Shown here in pieces: positions 4,193 through 43,184 of a DNA stretch of 64,000 nucleotides. Origin of the DNA: Iocasia fonsfrigidae (lineage in GTDB: Bacteria > Bacillota > Halanaerobiia > Halanaerobiales > DTU029); assembly GCF_017751145.1 (NCBI RefSeq), contig NZ_CP046640.1:662137-726136 (forward strand). The letters are read 5' to 3'. Every line of letters begins with the position of its first letter. Within the stretch, counting starts at the first letter, position 1. Position numbers and translations under genes: made by a program. The notes under the pieces were generated by a model, which saw nothing but the letters and a program-made list of their open reading frames with translations, was not told the origin of the DNA and ran no database searches.

Positions 4193-4229
4193 TAGAGGGG
4201 CAGCTGTCAGTTCTAAGAGGTGGATGCAG

Positions 4230-6008
4230 GTGGACTTATTGCAAAGGAAAGACACTTTTTTTGTTAAGCTTTTAATTAGGTTTTTTACTATTACAATGAT
4301 AGTTATCCTTATTTTCGGTTTTTCAGTTATTTATTATTTTAAGGGCTTTTATTTTTCTCAAAAGGAAGATGAAATAATAAAAAATAGTTCTGCTGTTATG
4401 GAGTATTTAGCCCAATCTTTTGTTAAAAATGATAGACAGGAGATTGTTAACTGGCTTAATATTCTTGCTAAATTAAATTCTGGTCAGGTATGGTTAATTA
4501 ATAATCAGGGATATTTAATCTTTAGCTATCCCTATTTATTTTCTGAAGAAAAAAGATTTTCCAGGTATGAGACGATTTTTACTGGTAAAATAATATCCCG
4601 TCTGGTTGATGCTTCAGATTTTGAAGACCCGATGTTATTAGTTGGTCTCCCAGTAAATTATAATGAAGAGGTTGAAGCAGCTTTATTGATTTTCACACCA
4701 ATTAAAGCGATTAATTCTACAATATATCAGGTTGAAAAATTAATGGTCTTAATATCTATTTTATCCATATTTTTAATATTAATTATTTCCTATGTTTGGT
4801 CTAAATCCCTAGCTACCCCCTTACAAAATATTGGTAATATAGCCTTTGAGATAAGTAAAGGTGAATTTGGCAAGACTATGACTCTGGCTAAAGAGGGGGT
4901 TAGTAGTGAAATCGATACTCTACTTGATAGTATTAATAGTATGTCTACTAAATTAAAGAGAACTATTGATAATTTAATTGAAGAAAGAAATAAATTGAAA
5001 CATGTTTTAACTGGCATGGAAGAGGGTATAATTGCAGTTAATAAATTTGGTGAAATAATCTTAATTAATGAATCTGCTTGTAAATTGTTAGACTTAAATA
5101 GAAATTTGATGGGAAAAGAGTTTGCTAAGGTCATTAGGAATAAAAAAGTACTTACTGTTTTTGAAACTGCTTTAAAAAAATTTGAAGAGAATTGGCAGGA
5201 GGTATTAATAAAAAGGGGTAATAGTAAACAGTGTATACTTATTCATTGTACTCCAATCTATACTGATAACAAAGAATTTTGGGGTGGTGTAGCTCTATTT
5301 CAGGATATTAGTGAACGTTATCGTTTTGAGAAATTACAAAGGGAGTTTGTAGCGAATATATCACATGAACTAAAGGCTCCCCTTACTTCAATTCAAGGTG
5401 CGGTTGAGTTATTATTAGATGGGGTTGCTAATAATAAGATAAAGCAGAATAACTATTTAAAAATGATTTTGCTTGAAAGTAATCGACTGACAGATTTAAT
5501 TAATGAAACACTTATACTGGCTGAAATAGATGCTGGTGGTTTGAAATTACATAAAGAAATAATAAATGTTAAAAACCTCTTTGAAAATATGCGAATGTTT
5601 TTTAATAATATTAAAAAAGAGGGACAGGAAATGAAATTAATAATACCTGATGAAAAGATAGGAATCTATGCTAACCAGGAAAAAATTAAACAGGTATTAA
5701 TTAATTTAATTAGCAATAGTGTTAAATTTTCACCAGGGAATGGAATGATTGAACTGGGAACAAAATTGTGTGATGATAAAATAAAAATATGGGTCAAAGA
5801 CCAGGGGATTGGTATTCCAGATTCAGAATTAAATAATATTTGGGAAAGATTTTATAAAATAGATAAGGCCAGAACCCCGGGTACTAATAGTAGTGGTTTA
5901 GGATTAGCAATCGTTAAACAGATTATTGAAGAACATCAGGGGCGGGTATTTGTGCAGAGTGAATTAAAGAGGGGTTCAACAATAGGATTTTTCCTTCCTA
6001 TAAAATAG
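4230..6008 (+). CDS. membrane sensor histidine kinase (PhoR/WalK-like)
   Basis: About 592 aa. Order of parts: first membrane helix near residues 16-36, extracytoplasmic sensor region, second helix near 170-192 (LISILSIFLILIISYVW), HAMP, PAS (near 255-360), HisKA with phospho-acceptor box ISHELKAPL, and an ATPase domain with N-box LINLISNSVKFSP, G1 DQGIGIPD and G2 GLGLAIVK. All catalytic motifs are intact. GTG 4230 has AGAGGTGG at a suitable distance; ATG 4224 is directly against it. The partner response regulator follows downstream; kinase-first order is less usual. The signal sensed is unknown. Confidence 0.93.
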   Translation: MDLLQRKDTFFVKLLIRFFTITMIVILIFGFSVIYYFKGFYFSQKEDEIIKNSSAVMEYLAQSFVKNDRQEIVNWLNILAKLNSGQVWLINNQGYLIFSYPYLFSEEKRFSRYETIFTGKIISRLVDASDFEDPMLLVGLPVNYNEEVEAALLIFTPIKAINSTIYQVEKLMVLISILSIFLILIISYVWSKSLATPLQNIGNIAFEISKGEFGKTMTLAKEGVSSEIDTLLDSINSMSTKLKRTIDNLIEERNKLKHVLTGMEEGIIAVNKFGEIILINESACKLLDLNRNLMGKEFAKVIRNKKVLTVFETALKKFEENWQEVLIKRGNSKQCILIHCTPIYTDNKEFWGGVALFQDISERYRFEKLQREFVANISHELKAPLTSIQGAVELLLDGVANNKIKQNNYLKMILLESNRLTDLINETLILAEIDAGGLKLHKEIINVKNLFENMRMFFNNIKKEGQEMKLIIPDEKIGIYANQEKIKQVLINLISNSVKFSPGNGMIELGTKLCDDKIKIWVKDQGIGIPDSELNNIWERFYKIDKARTPGTNSSGLGLAIVKQIIEEHQGRVFVQSELKRGSTIGFFLPIK

Positions 6009-6059
6009 AAAAAAATATGAAAATATAGTTTAAAGAACATATAGGGTTATAATTTCAAT

Positions 6060-6096
6060 ATTTTATCAAAATTTTATCACAAAAGTTTGATAAAAT
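6060..6096 (+). promoter_or_regulatory. tandem and inverted repeats between kinase and regulator genes
   Basis: ATTTTATCA occurs at 6060 and again at 6071, an 11-base period, and its reverse complement TTGATAAAAT lies at 6087-6096. Tandem half-sites with 11-bp spacing are the usual binding mode of OmpR/PhoB-type regulators, such as the one encoded immediately downstream. Autoregulation is an inference. Confidence 0.4.
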
Positions 6097-6119
6097 TAAA
6101 AACGGGAGGGATTTGTTTT

Positions 6120-6812
6120 ATGGAAAAAAACAAGGTTTTAATAATAGATGATGATCAACACATATGTCAGATACTTAAAGATTACTTTGAATTCGAAAAT
6201 TTTCAAGTTGTCTTAGCTTATGATGGTAATGAAGGCTTACAAAAAATAAAATCTAAAGATCCAGATATAATTATACTTGATTTAATGCTGCCGGAGTTGA
6301 GTGGATTGGAGATCTGTAAAAGATTAAGACCACATAATCATGTCCCTATAATTATCTTGAGTGCTAAAAATAAAGATATAGATAGAATAACTGGTCTGGA
6401 ACTAGGGGCTGATGATTATGTTACTAAACCATTTAGTCCTAAAGAAATAGTAGTTAGAACTAAAACTGTCTTAAGGAGGATTGGGAATAAAGAAAAACAG
6501 GCAAATGTATTAACTTTCACAGATTTATATATTAATAAAAACTATAGGTTAGTGGAGGTTGCTGATAAAGAAATATCATTGACTCCCAAAGAATTTGATT
6601 TATTATGGACAATGGTTTCTTCACCTAAAACAGTTTTTAGTAGAGAAAAATTATTAAAAATGGTTTGGGGTTATGATTATTTTGGGGATATACGAACTGT
6701 TGATACCCACATAAAATCTTTAAGAAATAAATTAGGGAAAGAGCTTGCTGCTTATCTGAAAACAGTCTGGGGAGTTGGTTACAAGTTTGACGATAAAATT
6801 AGAGAGGATTAA
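6120..6812 (+). CDS. OmpR/PhoB-family response regulator
   Basis: A 230-aa protein with an N-terminal receiver domain (acidic pocket DDD, phospho-acceptor Asp in IIILDLMLP, conserved Lys in VTKPFSP) and a C-terminal winged-helix DNA-binding domain (SLTPKEFDLLW, TVDTHIKSLRNKLG, TVWGVGYKF). The ATG at 6120 has GGGAGGG 9 bases upstream. It lies 111 bases after the sensor kinase and should be its partner. Confidence 0.95.
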   Translation: MEKNKVLIIDDDQHICQILKDYFEFENFQVVLAYDGNEGLQKIKSKDPDIIILDLMLPELSGLEICKRLRPHNHVPIIILSAKNKDIDRITGLELGADDYVTKPFSPKEIVVRTKTVLRRIGNKEKQANVLTFTDLYINKNYRLVEVADKEISLTPKEFDLLWTMVSSPKTVFSREKLLKMVWGYDYFGDIRTVDTHIKSLRNKLGKELAAYLKTVWGVGYKFDDKIRED

Positions 6813-6913
6813 CAAAAGTATATATTTAGATAGTGAGAATACATTTGTTTATATAAATAAGCTTAATATATTCATACTATATGAACTTATAAACTCCATT
6901 TCCTATTGGGAAT

Positions 6914-6943
6914 TTGCTTTACTAGTACAAACTGTGATATAAT
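6914..6943 (+). promoter_or_regulatory. putative promoter for the KamA-family gene
   Basis: TTGCTT at 6914-6919 and TATAAT at 6938-6943 with 18-base spacing. The leader that follows holds a weak hairpin followed by a T run (about 6978-7005), which could be an attenuator or chance. Confidence 0.4.
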
Positions 6944-7033
6944 TAAATAATGGAAATTAAATACATTAATCGGAAAGGATGTGTTTTTACATATCTTTTT
7001 TTATCTGTATAATTATTAAAGGGAGATGGAGAT

Positions 7034-8125
7034 ATGCAAGTTAAGTATTTTACTAATCTTGATCAGCTAGAAGATATTTCTGCTAAAGAGAAGGAGAAAC
7101 TCAAGAAGGTAAGTCAGAGATACCCTTTTAGAGCTAATGATTATTATCTGTCATTAATAGATTGGAATGACCCTTTAGACCCGATCAAAAGAATTATTAT
7201 TCCCAGTATTGGAGAATTGAATGCCTGGGGTGAACTTGATCCCTCTGAGGAGAGCAAATATACAGTAATGCCCGGTCTGGAACACAAATATGATTCAACT
7301 GTTCTGCTTTTAATCAGTAATGTCTGTGGAGGTATCTGCCGTTATTGTTTTAGAAAGCGGATATTTAAACAGCCAAACCAGGAATACTTAAGGGATATTG
7401 AGGCTGCTGTAGATTATATCCGCGGCCATAAGGAGGTTACCAATGTCCTCTTAACAGGTGGGGATTCGTTTATGTTGCCTACTAAAAGACTGAAGCTAAT
7501 TGTCGGAAAATTAAGGGAAATTGGACATGTTAAGATTATTCGTTTTGGGACTAAAATGCCTGTCTTTAATCCTTACAGGATTCTGGAGGATAGTTCATTA
7601 ATAGAGCTAATTAAAAACTATAGTACACCCCAGAAGCGTATCTATATTATAACAGATATAAATCATCCCAAAGAATTAAGCAAAAAGGCTATAAAGGGCT
7701 TGAAAATGCTGTTTAAGGCTGGTGCTATTCTTACTAATCAGACACCATTAATCAGGAACTTAAATGATGACCCTGAAGTAATGGCTGAGTTGTTCAGGAG
7801 ATTGTCATTTATTGGGGTACCCCCCTATTATGTTTTTCAGTGTAGGCCGTCAGTAGGCAATAAGGAGTATGCAGTACCTATAGAAAAGGGCTATAAGATA
7901 TATGAAGAGGCCAAATCTAGGGTCTCAGGTCTGGCTAAGAGCTCTCATTTTGTCCTTTCCCATGCCAGTGGAAAGATAGAGGTCGTGGGGATGAATAGTA
8001 AGAAGATATTTTTTAAATATCACCGGGCTTTCAAGAATAAGAATAGTAGTAGATTTTTTTCCTGCAAACGCAATTCAGAGGCATACTGGTTAGAAGATTA
8101 TGATGCATTGGCCTGTATTTCATAA
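7034..8125 (+). CDS. KamA-family radical SAM protein (lysine 2,3-aminomutase-like)
   Basis: A 363-aa protein with the radical SAM cluster motif CGGICRYCFRKR (CxxxCxxC) at about residues 97-105 and the KamA-type motif VLLTGGDSFML. A lysine in SHASGKIEVVG near the C-terminus is a candidate PLP lysine. It is shorter than catabolic lysine 2,3-aminomutases and lacks their C-terminal extension, so the substrate is uncertain; the EpmB/YjeK-like subgroup and glutamate-type aminomutases are possibilities. It stands alone between two other transcription units. Confidence 0.85.
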   Translation: MQVKYFTNLDQLEDISAKEKEKLKKVSQRYPFRANDYYLSLIDWNDPLDPIKRIIIPSIGELNAWGELDPSEESKYTVMPGLEHKYDSTVLLLISNVCGGICRYCFRKRIFKQPNQEYLRDIEAAVDYIRGHKEVTNVLLTGGDSFMLPTKRLKLIVGKLREIGHVKIIRFGTKMPVFNPYRILEDSSLIELIKNYSTPQKRIYIITDINHPKELSKKAIKGLKMLFKAGAILTNQTPLIRNLNDDPEVMAELFRRLSFIGVPPYYVFQCRPSVGNKEYAVPIEKGYKIYEEAKSRVSGLAKSSHFVLSHASGKIEVVGMNSKKIFFKYHRAFKNKNSSRFFSCKRNSEAYWLEDYDALACIS

Positions 8126-32886: not shown

Positions 32887-32961
32887 TGGACAAAAATACA
32901 AATAAAATTATACAGGTATTTATGTTATGTTTATGTTATTTTAATATTATTTACCTTGACT
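32887..32961 (+). promoter_or_regulatory. leader of the amino-acid transporter with shared 17-bp motif
   Basis: Two candidate promoters: TGGACA at 32887 with TATACA at 32909 (16-base spacing), and TTGACT at 32956 with TAAAAT at 32979 (17-base spacing). Between them ATGTTATGTTTATGTTA (32922-32938) is the exact reverse complement of 42237-42253 in the nifH leader. TGTTAT repeats 11 bases apart within it. A shared nitrogen regulator is inferred. Confidence 0.5.
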
Positions 32962-33038
32962 TACAGCTTTTTCTATAGTAAAATTATTAATATATAACAT
33001 GTAGTTTACATAAAAAATAGTATAAGGGGTTTGTTATT

Positions 33039-33809
33039 ATGAATTCTAAAGCTAACTTAAATGTAATAGACTGTAAGCGGAAACCAATTATTACTTTTAA
33101 AGATGTTAATAAATGGTTTGGGAGTCTACATGTATTAAAAGGGATTTCAACTGATGTCTACCCTGGGGAAGTGGTTGTAATTATTGGGCCTAGTGGGTCG
33201 GGCAAAAGCACTATGTTAAGATGTATAAATAGACTTGAAGCTATACAGAGAGGGAATTTGATTGTTGATGGATTTAATATTAGTGATAAGAAAATTAATA
33301 TTACTGAGGTCAGGGCAGAAATAGGGATGGTCTTTCAACATTTCCACCTTTATCCCCATATGACTGTCATAGAAAATATTACACTGGCACCCAGAAAAGT
33401 ACGCAAAACAAAGAAAAAGATAGCTCAACAGGAAGCCTTTGAACTGTTAGAGAAAGTGGGAATTTCAGATAAAGCCTATTCTTATCCTTCGCAATTATCT
33501 GGAGGTCAGAAGCAGAGAGTTGCTATTGCCAGGGGACTGGCTATGTATCCCAAAATTATGCTCTTTGATGAACCAACATCAGCACTTGATCCAGAAATGA
33601 TTAAAGAAGTACTGGATGTTATGAAAAAGCTGGCTTATGAGGGAATGACCATGGTGGTAGTGACACATGAAATGGGGTTTGCCCGGGAAGTAGCCGACAG
33701 GGTTATTTTTATGGATCAAGGTGCTATTGTAGAAATTGGTACCCCTGAACATTTTTTCAATAACCCTAAAGAAGAAAGAACACAGTCTTTTTTACAACAA
33801 ATTTTGTAA
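33039..33809 (+). CDS. amino-acid ABC transporter, ATP-binding protein
   Basis: A 256-aa GlnQ-type ATPase: Walker [10 protein letters not shown], signature [15 protein letters not shown], Walker [30 protein letters not shown]. First of four genes of a polar-amino-acid importer; the order ATPase, binding protein, permease, permease differs from the 20-kb system. The leader carries a motif shared with nifH. Confidence 0.95.
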
Positions 33810-33853
33810 ATACAAGATTACAAACAAAAATAAATAATTAAGGAGTGAGGAAC

Positions 33854-34666
33854 ATGGTGTTTAAAAAAACATTCTTATCTGTTTTGACTTTGTTGATAAT
33901 TTTCGTATTAAGTATGACTGCATTTGCTGACTCTACACTGGAAAAAGTTCAATCTGAAGGTGTACTGGTAGCTGGTGTAAAGTTTGACTCGCCACCATTT
34001 GGTTTTGTAGATGAAAGTGGTCAAGTGGTTGGTTTTGATATTGATGTTGCAAAATATATTGCTGATGAATTAGGTGTTGAACTTGAACTTAAACAGGTTA
34101 CTTCAAAAACTCGTATTCCTATGCTGCAGGAGGGTACAGTTGATTTATTAGTTGCTACTATGACTCATAATAAAACCCGTGAAGAAGCAATAGATTATAG
34201 TATTACTTATTTTTTTACTGGACAGAAGTTATTGGTTAAAAGTAATAGTAATATAAAAGGCACTGATGATCTGGCTGGTAAAACCATTGCTACAGTTCAA
34301 GGTTCGACCAGTGAAATAAATATAAAAAATGCTCAACCAGCAGCCGAAGTCCTTACTTTTCAAGAATACCCACAGGCTTTTATGGCTGTAAAACAAGGTC
34401 GGGCTGATGCAATGACAACTGATGCCAGTATTTTAGCTGGTTTTGCCGGCCAAAACCCTGGTTTTGAAATAGTTGGTCCAAATATCTCTGATGAACCTTA
34501 TGGAATAGGGGTTTGTGAAAATGACTCTGATTTCCGTGATGCTGTTAATTTTTCAATTATGAAAATGTGGGAATCAGGGGATTATGAATTAACATATGCT
34601 AAATGGTTTGGCCCTAATACAAAATATCCGTTGCCATTAAGCGGCAAAGTAGAAGTATGGCCGTAG
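33854..34666 (+). CDS. amino-acid ABC transporter, substrate-binding protein
   Basis: A 270-aa secreted protein with a type I signal peptide (TFLSVLTLLIIFVLSMTAFA) and no lipobox. Family signatures: GVKFDSPPFGFVDESGQVVG, FDIDVAKYIADELG, TVQGSTSEINI. ATG 33854 fits the AAGGAG site; the GTG at 33845 overlaps it. A strong hairpin separates it from the permeases. The absence of a lipid anchor is consistent with a periplasm. Confidence 0.93.
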   Translation: MVFKKTFLSVLTLLIIFVLSMTAFADSTLEKVQSEGVLVAGVKFDSPPFGFVDESGQVVGFDIDVAKYIADELGVELELKQVTSKTRIPMLQEGTVDLLVATMTHNKTREEAIDYSITYFFTGQKLLVKSNSNIKGTDDLAGKTIATVQGSTSEINIKNAQPAAEVLTFQEYPQAFMAVKQGRADAMTTDASILAGFAGQNPGFEIVGPNISDEPYGIGVCENDSDFRDAVNFSIMKMWESGDYELTYAKWFGPNTKYPLPLSGKVEVWP

Positions 34667-34703
34667 TGATAACTTAGTAAGCAAAATATGTATTCATAGC
34701 ATT

Positions 34704-34726
34704 GAGAACGGGGTAACCCCGTTCTC
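34704..34726 (+). terminator. intra-operon hairpin after the binding-protein gene
   Basis: Perfect 10-bp stem GAGAACGGGG / CCCCGTTCTC with a 3-base loop, followed by CTTTTA. It is likely a partial terminator or mRNA stabiliser that gives more binding protein than permease. Confidence 0.75.
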
Positions 34727-34750
34727 CTTTTATAGATTGGAGGGAAGTAA

Positions 34751-35455
34751 ATGGACTATGATTTTAACTGGTTAGTTCTCTGGGATTATAGAGAATTGCT
34801 CTTAAAAGGTCTGCTTATTACAATTAAATTATCAATAATATCTATTGCTCTTAGCACAATTATTGGTTTTATATTTGGTACTATGCGTACTGCAAAAAAT
34901 AAATTACTTAGAATGGTATCCTCGGTTTATGTAGAATTTTTTCTTAATACCCCTTTGATTATTCAACTTTTTTTCTGGTATTTTGCTTTACCTATGGCAC
35001 TTCCTGAATTTATACGGGGATGGTTCTGGAGTCATAATTATGAATTTATTAGTGCTGTAATTGGTCTTACCATTTATACCAGTACCTTTATTGCAGAAGT
35101 AATTAGGGCAGGGATCCAATCGATAGATGATGGGCAGTGGGAAGCCGGACAATCCAGTGGCTTAACAAGGTTTCAATGTCTTATCTTTATTATTATACCA
35201 CAAGCTATCCAGGTTATTATACCTCCTCTTTGTAATCAGTATTTAAATTTAATAAAGAATTCTTCACTGGCTATGACGGTTGCAGTAGCCGAGCTTACAT
35301 ATCAGGCTCAGGCTATTGAAGCACTTACCTTTCGTGGTTTTGAAGCATTTACTGCAGCAACTTTGATATATATTGTTCTAACATTATTAGTTTCTTTACT
35401 GATGAATAGATTTGAGAAATGGATTAATCGAAGTAGGATATCAATAAGTACATAA
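34751..35455 (+). CDS. amino-acid ABC transporter, permease 1
   Basis: A 234-aa inner-membrane protein of the HisM/GlnP family: FFLNTPLIIQLFF, EAGQSSGLTRFQCLIFIIIPQ loop, STFIAEVIRAGIQS. ATG start with GGAGGG. Confidence 0.93.
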   Translation: MDYDFNWLVLWDYRELLLKGLLITIKLSIISIALSTIIGFIFGTMRTAKNKLLRMVSSVYVEFFLNTPLIIQLFFWYFALPMALPEFIRGWFWSHNYEFISAVIGLTIYTSTFIAEVIRAGIQSIDDGQWEAGQSSGLTRFQCLIFIIIPQAIQVIIPPLCNQYLNLIKNSSLAMTVAVAELTYQAQAIEALTFRGFEAFTAATLIYIVLTLLVSLLMNRFEKWINRSRISIST

Positions 35456-35493
35456 AACAAAAAGATATAAATGTGTATTAAGGAGTTGTTATT

Positions 35494-36144
35494 ATGTCAA
35501 TTCAGGTAATTATTAATAATATTCCATATTTAGCAAAGGGTTTTTTAGTAACCCTTGAGTTAGCTATAATATCCATTATTTTAAGTTTTATTTTAGGCAC
35601 TTTACTGGGTATTGTTAAATTAGCTAAAAACCCCATTATCAGTACACTTGCCTCTGTTTATATTGAAATTGTTCGGGGTACGCCTTTAATAATGGTTGTT
35701 TTCTGGATATTTTTTCTACTGCCAATACTGCTGAGTAAACCTATTCAACCATTTACCAGTGCGGTAGCAGCTTTTAGTATTTTTACATCTGCTTATATTG
35801 CTGAAATAGTTAGAGCTGGAATACAATCAATACCTGTTGGCCAGATAGAAGCTGCTTTATCTTCTGGTTTATCTTACTGGCAGACAATGCGATTTATCAT
35901 ATTACCCCAGGCTACCACTAAAATGATTCCTCCCCTAGTATCTCAATTTATATCTTTATTTAAAGATACCTCCCTGGCATATATTATTGGGGTAATGGAA
36001 TTGACCAGGAGAGCTACTATTATTAATAACCGTGAATTTAAGTCTTTTGAAATTTTTACTTTTGTAGCAATAATATATTTTATGATTTGTTATTCTATGT
36101 CAAAGTACGCTAAATACCTGGAAAGAAAAAGGCGGATTGTATAA
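35494..36144 (+). CDS. amino-acid ABC transporter, permease 2
   Basis: A 216-aa permease with EIVRGTPLIMVVF and the loop EAALSSGLSYWQTMRFIILPQ. Different from permease 1, so the two should form a heterodimer. Last gene of the transporter operon. Confidence 0.93.
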   Translation: MSIQVIINNIPYLAKGFLVTLELAIISIILSFILGTLLGIVKLAKNPIISTLASVYIEIVRGTPLIMVVFWIFFLLPILLSKPIQPFTSAVAAFSIFTSAYIAEIVRAGIQSIPVGQIEAALSSGLSYWQTMRFIILPQATTKMIPPLVSQFISLFKDTSLAYIIGVMELTRRATIINNREFKSFEIFTFVAIIYFMICYSMSKYAKYLERKRRIV

Positions 36145-42081: not shown

Positions 42082-42141
42082 TTTTTCATGGTAAATTTAA
42101 TATTTTTACAGGGGTAGGCAGAAAGTATTATGTAAGGTAAA

Positions 42142-42258
42142 TGTTAGTATACTGGTATTGATATCCTAAAATCCATTGTAAATAGAGAATTAAATGTTAT
42201 AATTATTTTAAACATAACACAAAAATTTCTTATAACTAACATAAACATAACATTAACA
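42142..42258 (+). promoter_or_regulatory. nifH leader: candidate promoter and repeated motifs
   Basis: TTGTAA (42176-42181) and TATAAT (42198-42203) form a candidate promoter with 16-base spacing. AAACATAACA follows at 42210-42219 and again at 42243-42252, 33 bases apart. The second lies in TAACATAAACATAACAT (42237-42253), shared in inverse orientation with the leader at 32922-32938. Upstream, TGTTAGTATACTG (42142-42154) recurs at 54546. Position just after the -10 box suggests repressor-type control; no sigma-54 site was seen. Confidence 0.5.

Positions 42259-42332: not shown

Positions 42333-43184
<852 letters not shown>

Follow-up and report, generated by a model that had tools for sequence, protein, structure and literature searches.

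The 17-bp sequence TAACATAAACATAACAT, present in the leader of nifH and in that of a GlnQ-type amino-acid transporter operon of Iocasia fonsfrigidae, is well supported as one operator of a global nitrogen regulon. As judged from the DNA itself, this operator is real, conserved and linked to nitrogen genes, and the features that can be read there directly are the repeat that forms it, its regulon, its lattice relative to the promoters and its conservation. It takes the form of a direct repeat (period 11 bp), and its most likely reader is a GlnR-type protein.

A direct repeat in two leaders

Within the window (the whole stretch of DNA analysed, 64,000 nucleotides), the 17-mer occurs at 42237-42253 (plus strand) and 32922-32938 (minus strand). 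These positions and orientations, reported in an earlier note on this DNA, proved correct, and no further exact copy exists in the 3.93-Mb genome; for the backwards control of the 17-mer there is none. The 17-mer reads TAACAT-N5-TAACAT, and among TAACAT pairs with gaps of 0-22 in the genome, a gap of 5 accounts for 10 of 49, compared with about 1.8 if pairs were even over the other gaps. More generally, the unit of the box is TNACAY, repeated head to tail every 11 bp in rows of two or three units. The half-site TNACA, seen as TWACAY or TRACAY, is common also to WalR/PhoP boxes and hence is not decisive.

The earlier note had equated the half-site with that of GlnR/TnrA boxes at a different spacing. 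The arrangement does differ, but so does the orientation, which is direct and not inverted: direct reading of the 17-mer revealed no palindrome at N7 and no inverted repeat TGTNA-N7-TNACA.

In the nif system of Paenibacillus polymyxa, GlnR activates at site I and represses at site II, which lies downstream of the start (PMC6191146). The nifH leader examined here contains the following features:

42130..42146, minus strand: upstream box of the nifH promoter, TAACATTTACCTTACAT, at -80..-64 from the inferred start (site I position; a similar box lies at H. salsuginis nifH -79..-63)
42176..42203, plus strand: inferred nifH promoter, TTGTAA (42176-42181), 16 bp, TATAAT (42198-42203), start near 42210; from sequence
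42210..42220, plus strand: AAACATAACAC, single half-site TAACAC at +5, on the 11-bp lattice (the same-family genome G007 has a full box in the corresponding position)
42237..42253, plus strand: the 17-mer, nifH downstream box, half-sites at +27 and +38 (site II position)
42360..43184, plus strand: nifH, first gene of the nif operon, followed by nifI1 and nifI2 (NCBIfam TIGR01287 above cut-off)

The leader of the transporter operon is built as follows:

32922..32949, minus strand: upstream box, consisting of the exact 17-mer (32922-32938) and a weaker third unit to 32949
32956..32984, plus strand: inferred promoter, TTGACT (32956-32961), 17 bp, TAAAAT (32979-32984), start near 32991; from sequence
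32995..33011, plus strand: downstream box TAACATGTAGTTTACAT, +4..+20
33039..36144, plus strand: polar amino-acid ABC transporter operon (GlnQ-like ATPase, binding protein, two permeases; best matches below curated cut-offs)

Two of these boxes, the reverse box at 42130-42146 upstream of the nifH promoter and the one at 32995-33011, had been missed previously. The earlier note had also placed a copy of the motif 6-8 bases past a candidate -10 box in both leaders. The distances (6 and 8) hold, but the transporter copy is not a downstream site, since the better promoter (32956-32984) lies downstream of 32922-32938, and this copy is therefore upstream of the likely promoter; the downstream place is taken by the second box. 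Thus, the exact 17-mer is a downstream site in one leader and an upstream site in the other.

The 10-mer AAACATAACA is found at 42210-42219 and 42243-42252, the 33-bp distance noted before, and in reverse at 32923-32932. The 33 bp equal three lattice steps, with half-sites at +5, +27 and +38. With one mismatch allowed, the 10-mer alone was not enriched in the window (10 found vs 10.4 expected), unlike the 17-mer and its direct-repeat form; the signal is therefore carried by the repeat and not by the 10-mer.

Genes carrying the box

Pattern searches of the own genome gave 17 matches to the 17-mer with two mismatches (6 for the backwards control) and 24 to the strict form TWACAY-N5-TWACAY (control: 7). 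A loose triple-repeat search (45 matches vs 25) was too noisy for use alone. Neighbouring genes were read and assigned with NCBIfam, and 14 of the 24 strict matches were found to lie in leaders of nitrogen genes:

nifH: 2
GlnQ-type operon: 2
amtB1: 2
amtB2: 1
LivF gene: 1
LivJ gene: 1
TRAP DctP operons: 2 and 1
class-III aminotransferase: 2

Four further matches precede pstS, pstB and alkaline phosphatase, i.e. the Pho regulon, and six lie elsewhere, about the number predicted by the control. Relaxed boxes were present before the LivG operon (L006) and both glnA operons. The earlier note had proposed such a scan, naming glnA and amtB as genes to look at, and had regarded many matches unrelated to nitrogen, or a lack of conservation in close relatives, as evidence against an operator. 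Both glnA and amtB carry the box, matches fall mainly before nitrogen genes, and the nifH promoters of a same-family genome and Orenia, and in part those of Halanaerobium, retain the box. The idea of a nitrogen-status operator linking amino-acid uptake and N2 fixation thus came through both tests and is supported by the position of the boxes.

The same scan bears on the main alternative, that an OmpR-type (WalR- or PhoP-like) response regulator reads the boxes, perhaps the one encoded at 6087-6812 in the window:

4224..6812, plus strand: WalK/PhoR-like kinase and PhoB/WalR-like response regulator (6087-6812); no NCBIfam model above cut-off

Such a protein would make nitrogen control a two-component system, with glnR among its targets. 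OmpR-type response regulators typically bind direct repeats, the 11-bp period suits this family, and ten of its members are encoded in the own genome. Taken as its reverse complement, TGTTATGTTTATGTTAT, the 17-mer is an exact match to the WalR/YycF motif TGTWAH-N5-TGTWAH (PMC5405149). The operator has the WalR sequence motif but lacks the WalR target set: no recognised cell-wall gene was found among the neighbours of the strict matches in the own genome. Similar arrays do precede the pst genes, yet these Pho arrays differ, having TTAACA-type units upstream of the -10 and no TTGACA -35 that could be seen. Moreover, several genomes have the box at the glnR-glnA operon itself, and we know of no nitrogen kinase in this group. 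We regard a response regulator as a possible but rather unlikely reader.

Three observations lie beside the nitrogen set. A KamA-family radical SAM protein, lysine/glutamate 2,3-aminomutase-like and below the cut-offs of specific models, is encoded after the WalR/PhoP-like response regulator in the window (6087-8125). At L205 (1501-1517), a box, TAACACCATAATAACAC, immediately follows TTGACA-N17-TAAAAT, with a D-psicose 3-epimerase gene about 550 bp further on; this box is on the nitrogen lattice, without a clear nitrogen link. Two Fic/Doc-like cassettes of the own genome (L206 1501-1517 and L207 1501-1517) have the 17-mer TAACATTTGTATTACAT in common in their leaders, and this sequence occurs once in Orenia (G012:C27); it is probably a cassette-specific element outside the nitrogen set.

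Boxes and promoters form one lattice

Boxes were found just downstream of TTGACA-N17-TATAAT promoters. A fixed score selected the best -35/-10 pair of every leader, and the seventh base past the -10 was taken as the start. On this scale, forward boxes begin at -17, -6, +5, +16 and +27 (±1), which is one 11-bp lattice. In 16 of 16 leaders used, from three genomes, the forward box starts at 5±1 modulo 11 (residues 4 to 6) from the inferred start, orthologous leaders among them not being independent. The 11 own leaders alone gave a Monte Carlo p≤5e-6, with one box per leader picked by hand, the start of L008 set by eye and all starts inferred. The second nifH box of G007 (+56) does not fit this lattice. 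Most strict Orenia boxes that have a recognisable promoter follow it; the hydantoin ABC pair does not.

Several promoters, those of nifH and the GlnQ-type operon among them, have an oppositely oriented box some 15-60 bp upstream of the -35. Such upstream reverse boxes are phased at 10.5 bp (p≤1e-5) and were found at nifH (42130-42146), the GlnQ-type operon (32922-32949), LivG and LivJ, as well as at glnR, glnA and nifH of Orenia. A reading at the RNA level was ruled out, as the boxes at -17, -6 and upstream of the -35 lie outside the transcript or only partly within it.

Conservation in relatives

Gene order and promoters shared with Halanaerobium and Orenia suggest that the source organism belongs to Halanaerobiales or a group close by. 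In Orenia metallireducens, the strict form gave 39 matches (control: 8), clustered at nifH, nifV, glnA, amtB and purine catabolism. Sixteen of them lie within 52-123 kb of one contig (C7), a nitrogen island where two regulators, PucR and an XRE-cupin protein, accompany glnA, nifV, amtB, the nif operon and genes of purine and hydantoin catabolism (names read from translations). The Orenia nifV, nifH, amtB, PucR and XRE-cupin genes have a TTGACA-like-N17-TATAAT promoter with the box immediately after it; the nifH leader reads TTGACA-N17-TATAAT-TAACACATACTTAACAT. In G007, the nifH leader is TTGACA-N17-TATAAT-TTACATCAACATAACAC, followed by a second box, TTACATAGACATAACAT. In Halanaerobium, the upstream reverse box of nifH is retained in H. 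salsuginis (-79..-63) and is weaker, at a similar place, in H. saccharolyticum; several nifH leaders have a single half-site about 15 bases past the inferred start (read by eye), and amtB and gltB carry boxes. One ammonium transporter of Orenia (L239, G012:C7:69117-71372) has 752 aa and is far longer than AmtB, the extra part being C-terminal.

An excess of the strict form was also found in G006 (15 vs 2 in the control). There was no clear genome-wide excess in G004, G005, G007 and G008, despite the presence of glnR, and little in other Halanaerobium; the loose pair with one mismatch gave no excess in G007 or most Halanaerobium, where genome counts are uninformative. With counts not clearly raised in relatives besides Orenia and G006, the evidence there is by promoter only. 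Across 25 genomes compared for boxes and glnR, G001-G003 had one strict match each, a clear GlnR being absent from the two tested, and some glnR carriers showed no excess. Among the nifH leaders of 80 relatives, nothing beyond chance was found outside Halanaerobium, Orenia and the own family.

The low counts in most relatives are what a chance repeat in AT-rich leaders would give. This explanation is contradicted by the excess at gap 5, the nitrogen targets, the fixed promoter lattice and the conservation at nifH and glnR, and is extremely improbable. Another proposal is that XRE-cupin regulators read the boxes, e.g. the ones encoded next to the L008 and L016 operons or within the purine cluster of Orenia. 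Their genes do adjoin boxed promoters (two own loci and Orenia), but they are local and away from nifH, glnA and amtB, and the Orenia gene itself stands behind a box, as a target would; we consider such readers quite unlikely.

A strict box of G006 (L303 1501-1517) lies between trmFO-like and hslV-like genes, a neighbourhood where codY is often next; codY was absent from the stretch read.

GlnR as the candidate reader

We consider it likely, though well short of certain, that the operator belongs to a global nitrogen regulon read by GlnR, which would bind direct repeats and repress when nitrogen is in excess. The identity of the regulator, the sign of regulation and the binding mode are what we infer here. 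GlnR is proposed because of its operons, the box in glnR leaders, its winged helix-turn-helix (wHTH) and its C-tail. The glnR gene is located directly before glnA2 in the own genome and in seven relatives (G004-G008, G010, G011), and six genomes (own, G005, G006, G007, G008, G011) have a direct-repeat box, TNACAY-N5-TGACAT, overlapping the -35 of glnR. Orenia glnR has a three-unit box after the -10, and no clear box was seen at H. salsuginis glnR. The own GlnR has a MerR-type wHTH with an ARQIRYY recognition helix, matching solved GlnR with E 3.6e-17. Its C-tail, NKGDLSRIYP, resembles the motif XG(E/D)XSRF, which binds feedback-inhibited glutamine synthetase (PMC9249791): the corresponding residues are KGDLSRI in the own protein and KGDLVSRF in G007. 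Halanaerobium proteins have a weak form of this tail motif, and the short GlnR of Orenia C7 lacks it.

The evidence against GlnR is geometry. In the GlnR-DNA structures of the cited papers, palindromes are bound by symmetric dimers that meet via their N-terminal regions, vs direct repeats here. The N-terminal arm of the own GlnR is about 6 residues long, as it is in five of the seven relatives aligned, and has at least 11 in solved GlnR. An inverted GlnR/TnrA reading was ruled out, as the N7 palindrome (TGTNAN7TNACA) is absent from the 17-mer and from the glnR leaders scanned.

In the proposed mechanism, the reader would be the MerR-type GlnR encoded with glnA2, autoregulated and activated through its C-tail by feedback-inhibited glutamine synthetase. 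This GlnR would need to recognise direct repeats, like BldC, a distant MerR-like relative, and not the Bacillus GlnR palindrome. Most boxes cover the -10/start region or the first transcribed turns and keep a fixed helical register with RNA polymerase. A protein bound there should therefore block initiation or escape, giving repression in nitrogen excess. The upstream reverse box has the place of an activation site used in nitrogen limitation. The switch would most likely turn off nitrogen fixation, ammonium uptake and amino-acid uptake when nitrogen is plentiful.

We lean, by a small degree, towards a broader interpretation, in which GlnR of this group has exchanged palindromes for open-ended 11-bp direct repeats and forms head-to-tail assemblies along the promoter, as a second MerR-like lineage besides BldC, with feedback-inhibited glutamine synthetase as co-repressor and nif under direct control. 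The best GlnR relatives read in other Clostridia were unrelated MerR proteins and gave no clean GlnR tree on which direct and inverted sites could be placed.

Significance and comparison with known systems

Little is known about ammonium control of nif transcription in anaerobic Gram-positive bacteria outside Paenibacillus, and a literature search on this subject found nothing for this bacterial group. The boxes define a regulon and a promoter lattice and point to one prime regulator, which makes the question directly testable. Their direct-repeat geometry is not described for GlnR, the probable reader, in the literature consulted. If GlnR reads the boxes, they would show how a binder of symmetric palindromes can change to direct repeats; the authors of the BldC study knew of no other MerR-like regulator that binds direct repeats (PMC5859096). 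If a response regulator reads them, these bacteria would have a two-component switch for nitrogen that has no counterpart in the literature searched.

The boxes share with the GlnR/TnrA boxes of Bacillota (TGTNAN7TNACA) the TNACA half-site, the association (by position only) with nitrogen genes including glnRA, amtB, nif and transporters, and a site in the leader of the glnR-glnA operon. As at P. polymyxa nif (PMC6191146), one site lies upstream of the -35 and one downstream of the start. In contrast to GlnR/TnrA boxes, the half-sites point in the same direction, in twos or threes with an 11-bp period and no palindrome, and the arm of the protein is shorter than in solved GlnR. The defining inverted repeat being absent, the operator was not filed as a GlnR/TnrA box, despite the GlnR-type genes and the places of the sites. 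WalR (YycF)/PhoP boxes have the same TNACA or TGTWAH units in an 11-bp direct repeat, whereas the boxes described here precede nitrogen genes, not cell-wall or phosphate genes, and lie mostly over or downstream of the -10. The BldC operators of Streptomyces have a 9-bp direct repeat with an AATT-type unit, a form not found here, where the period is 11 and the unit TNACAY; BldC is also a bare wHTH protein that controls developmental genes and has no glutamine-synthetase tail. The likeness lies in a MerR-type wHTH without a coiled coil, placed head to tail on direct repeats in variable number, and BldC shows that a MerR-like protein of this build can bind direct repeats (PMC5859096).
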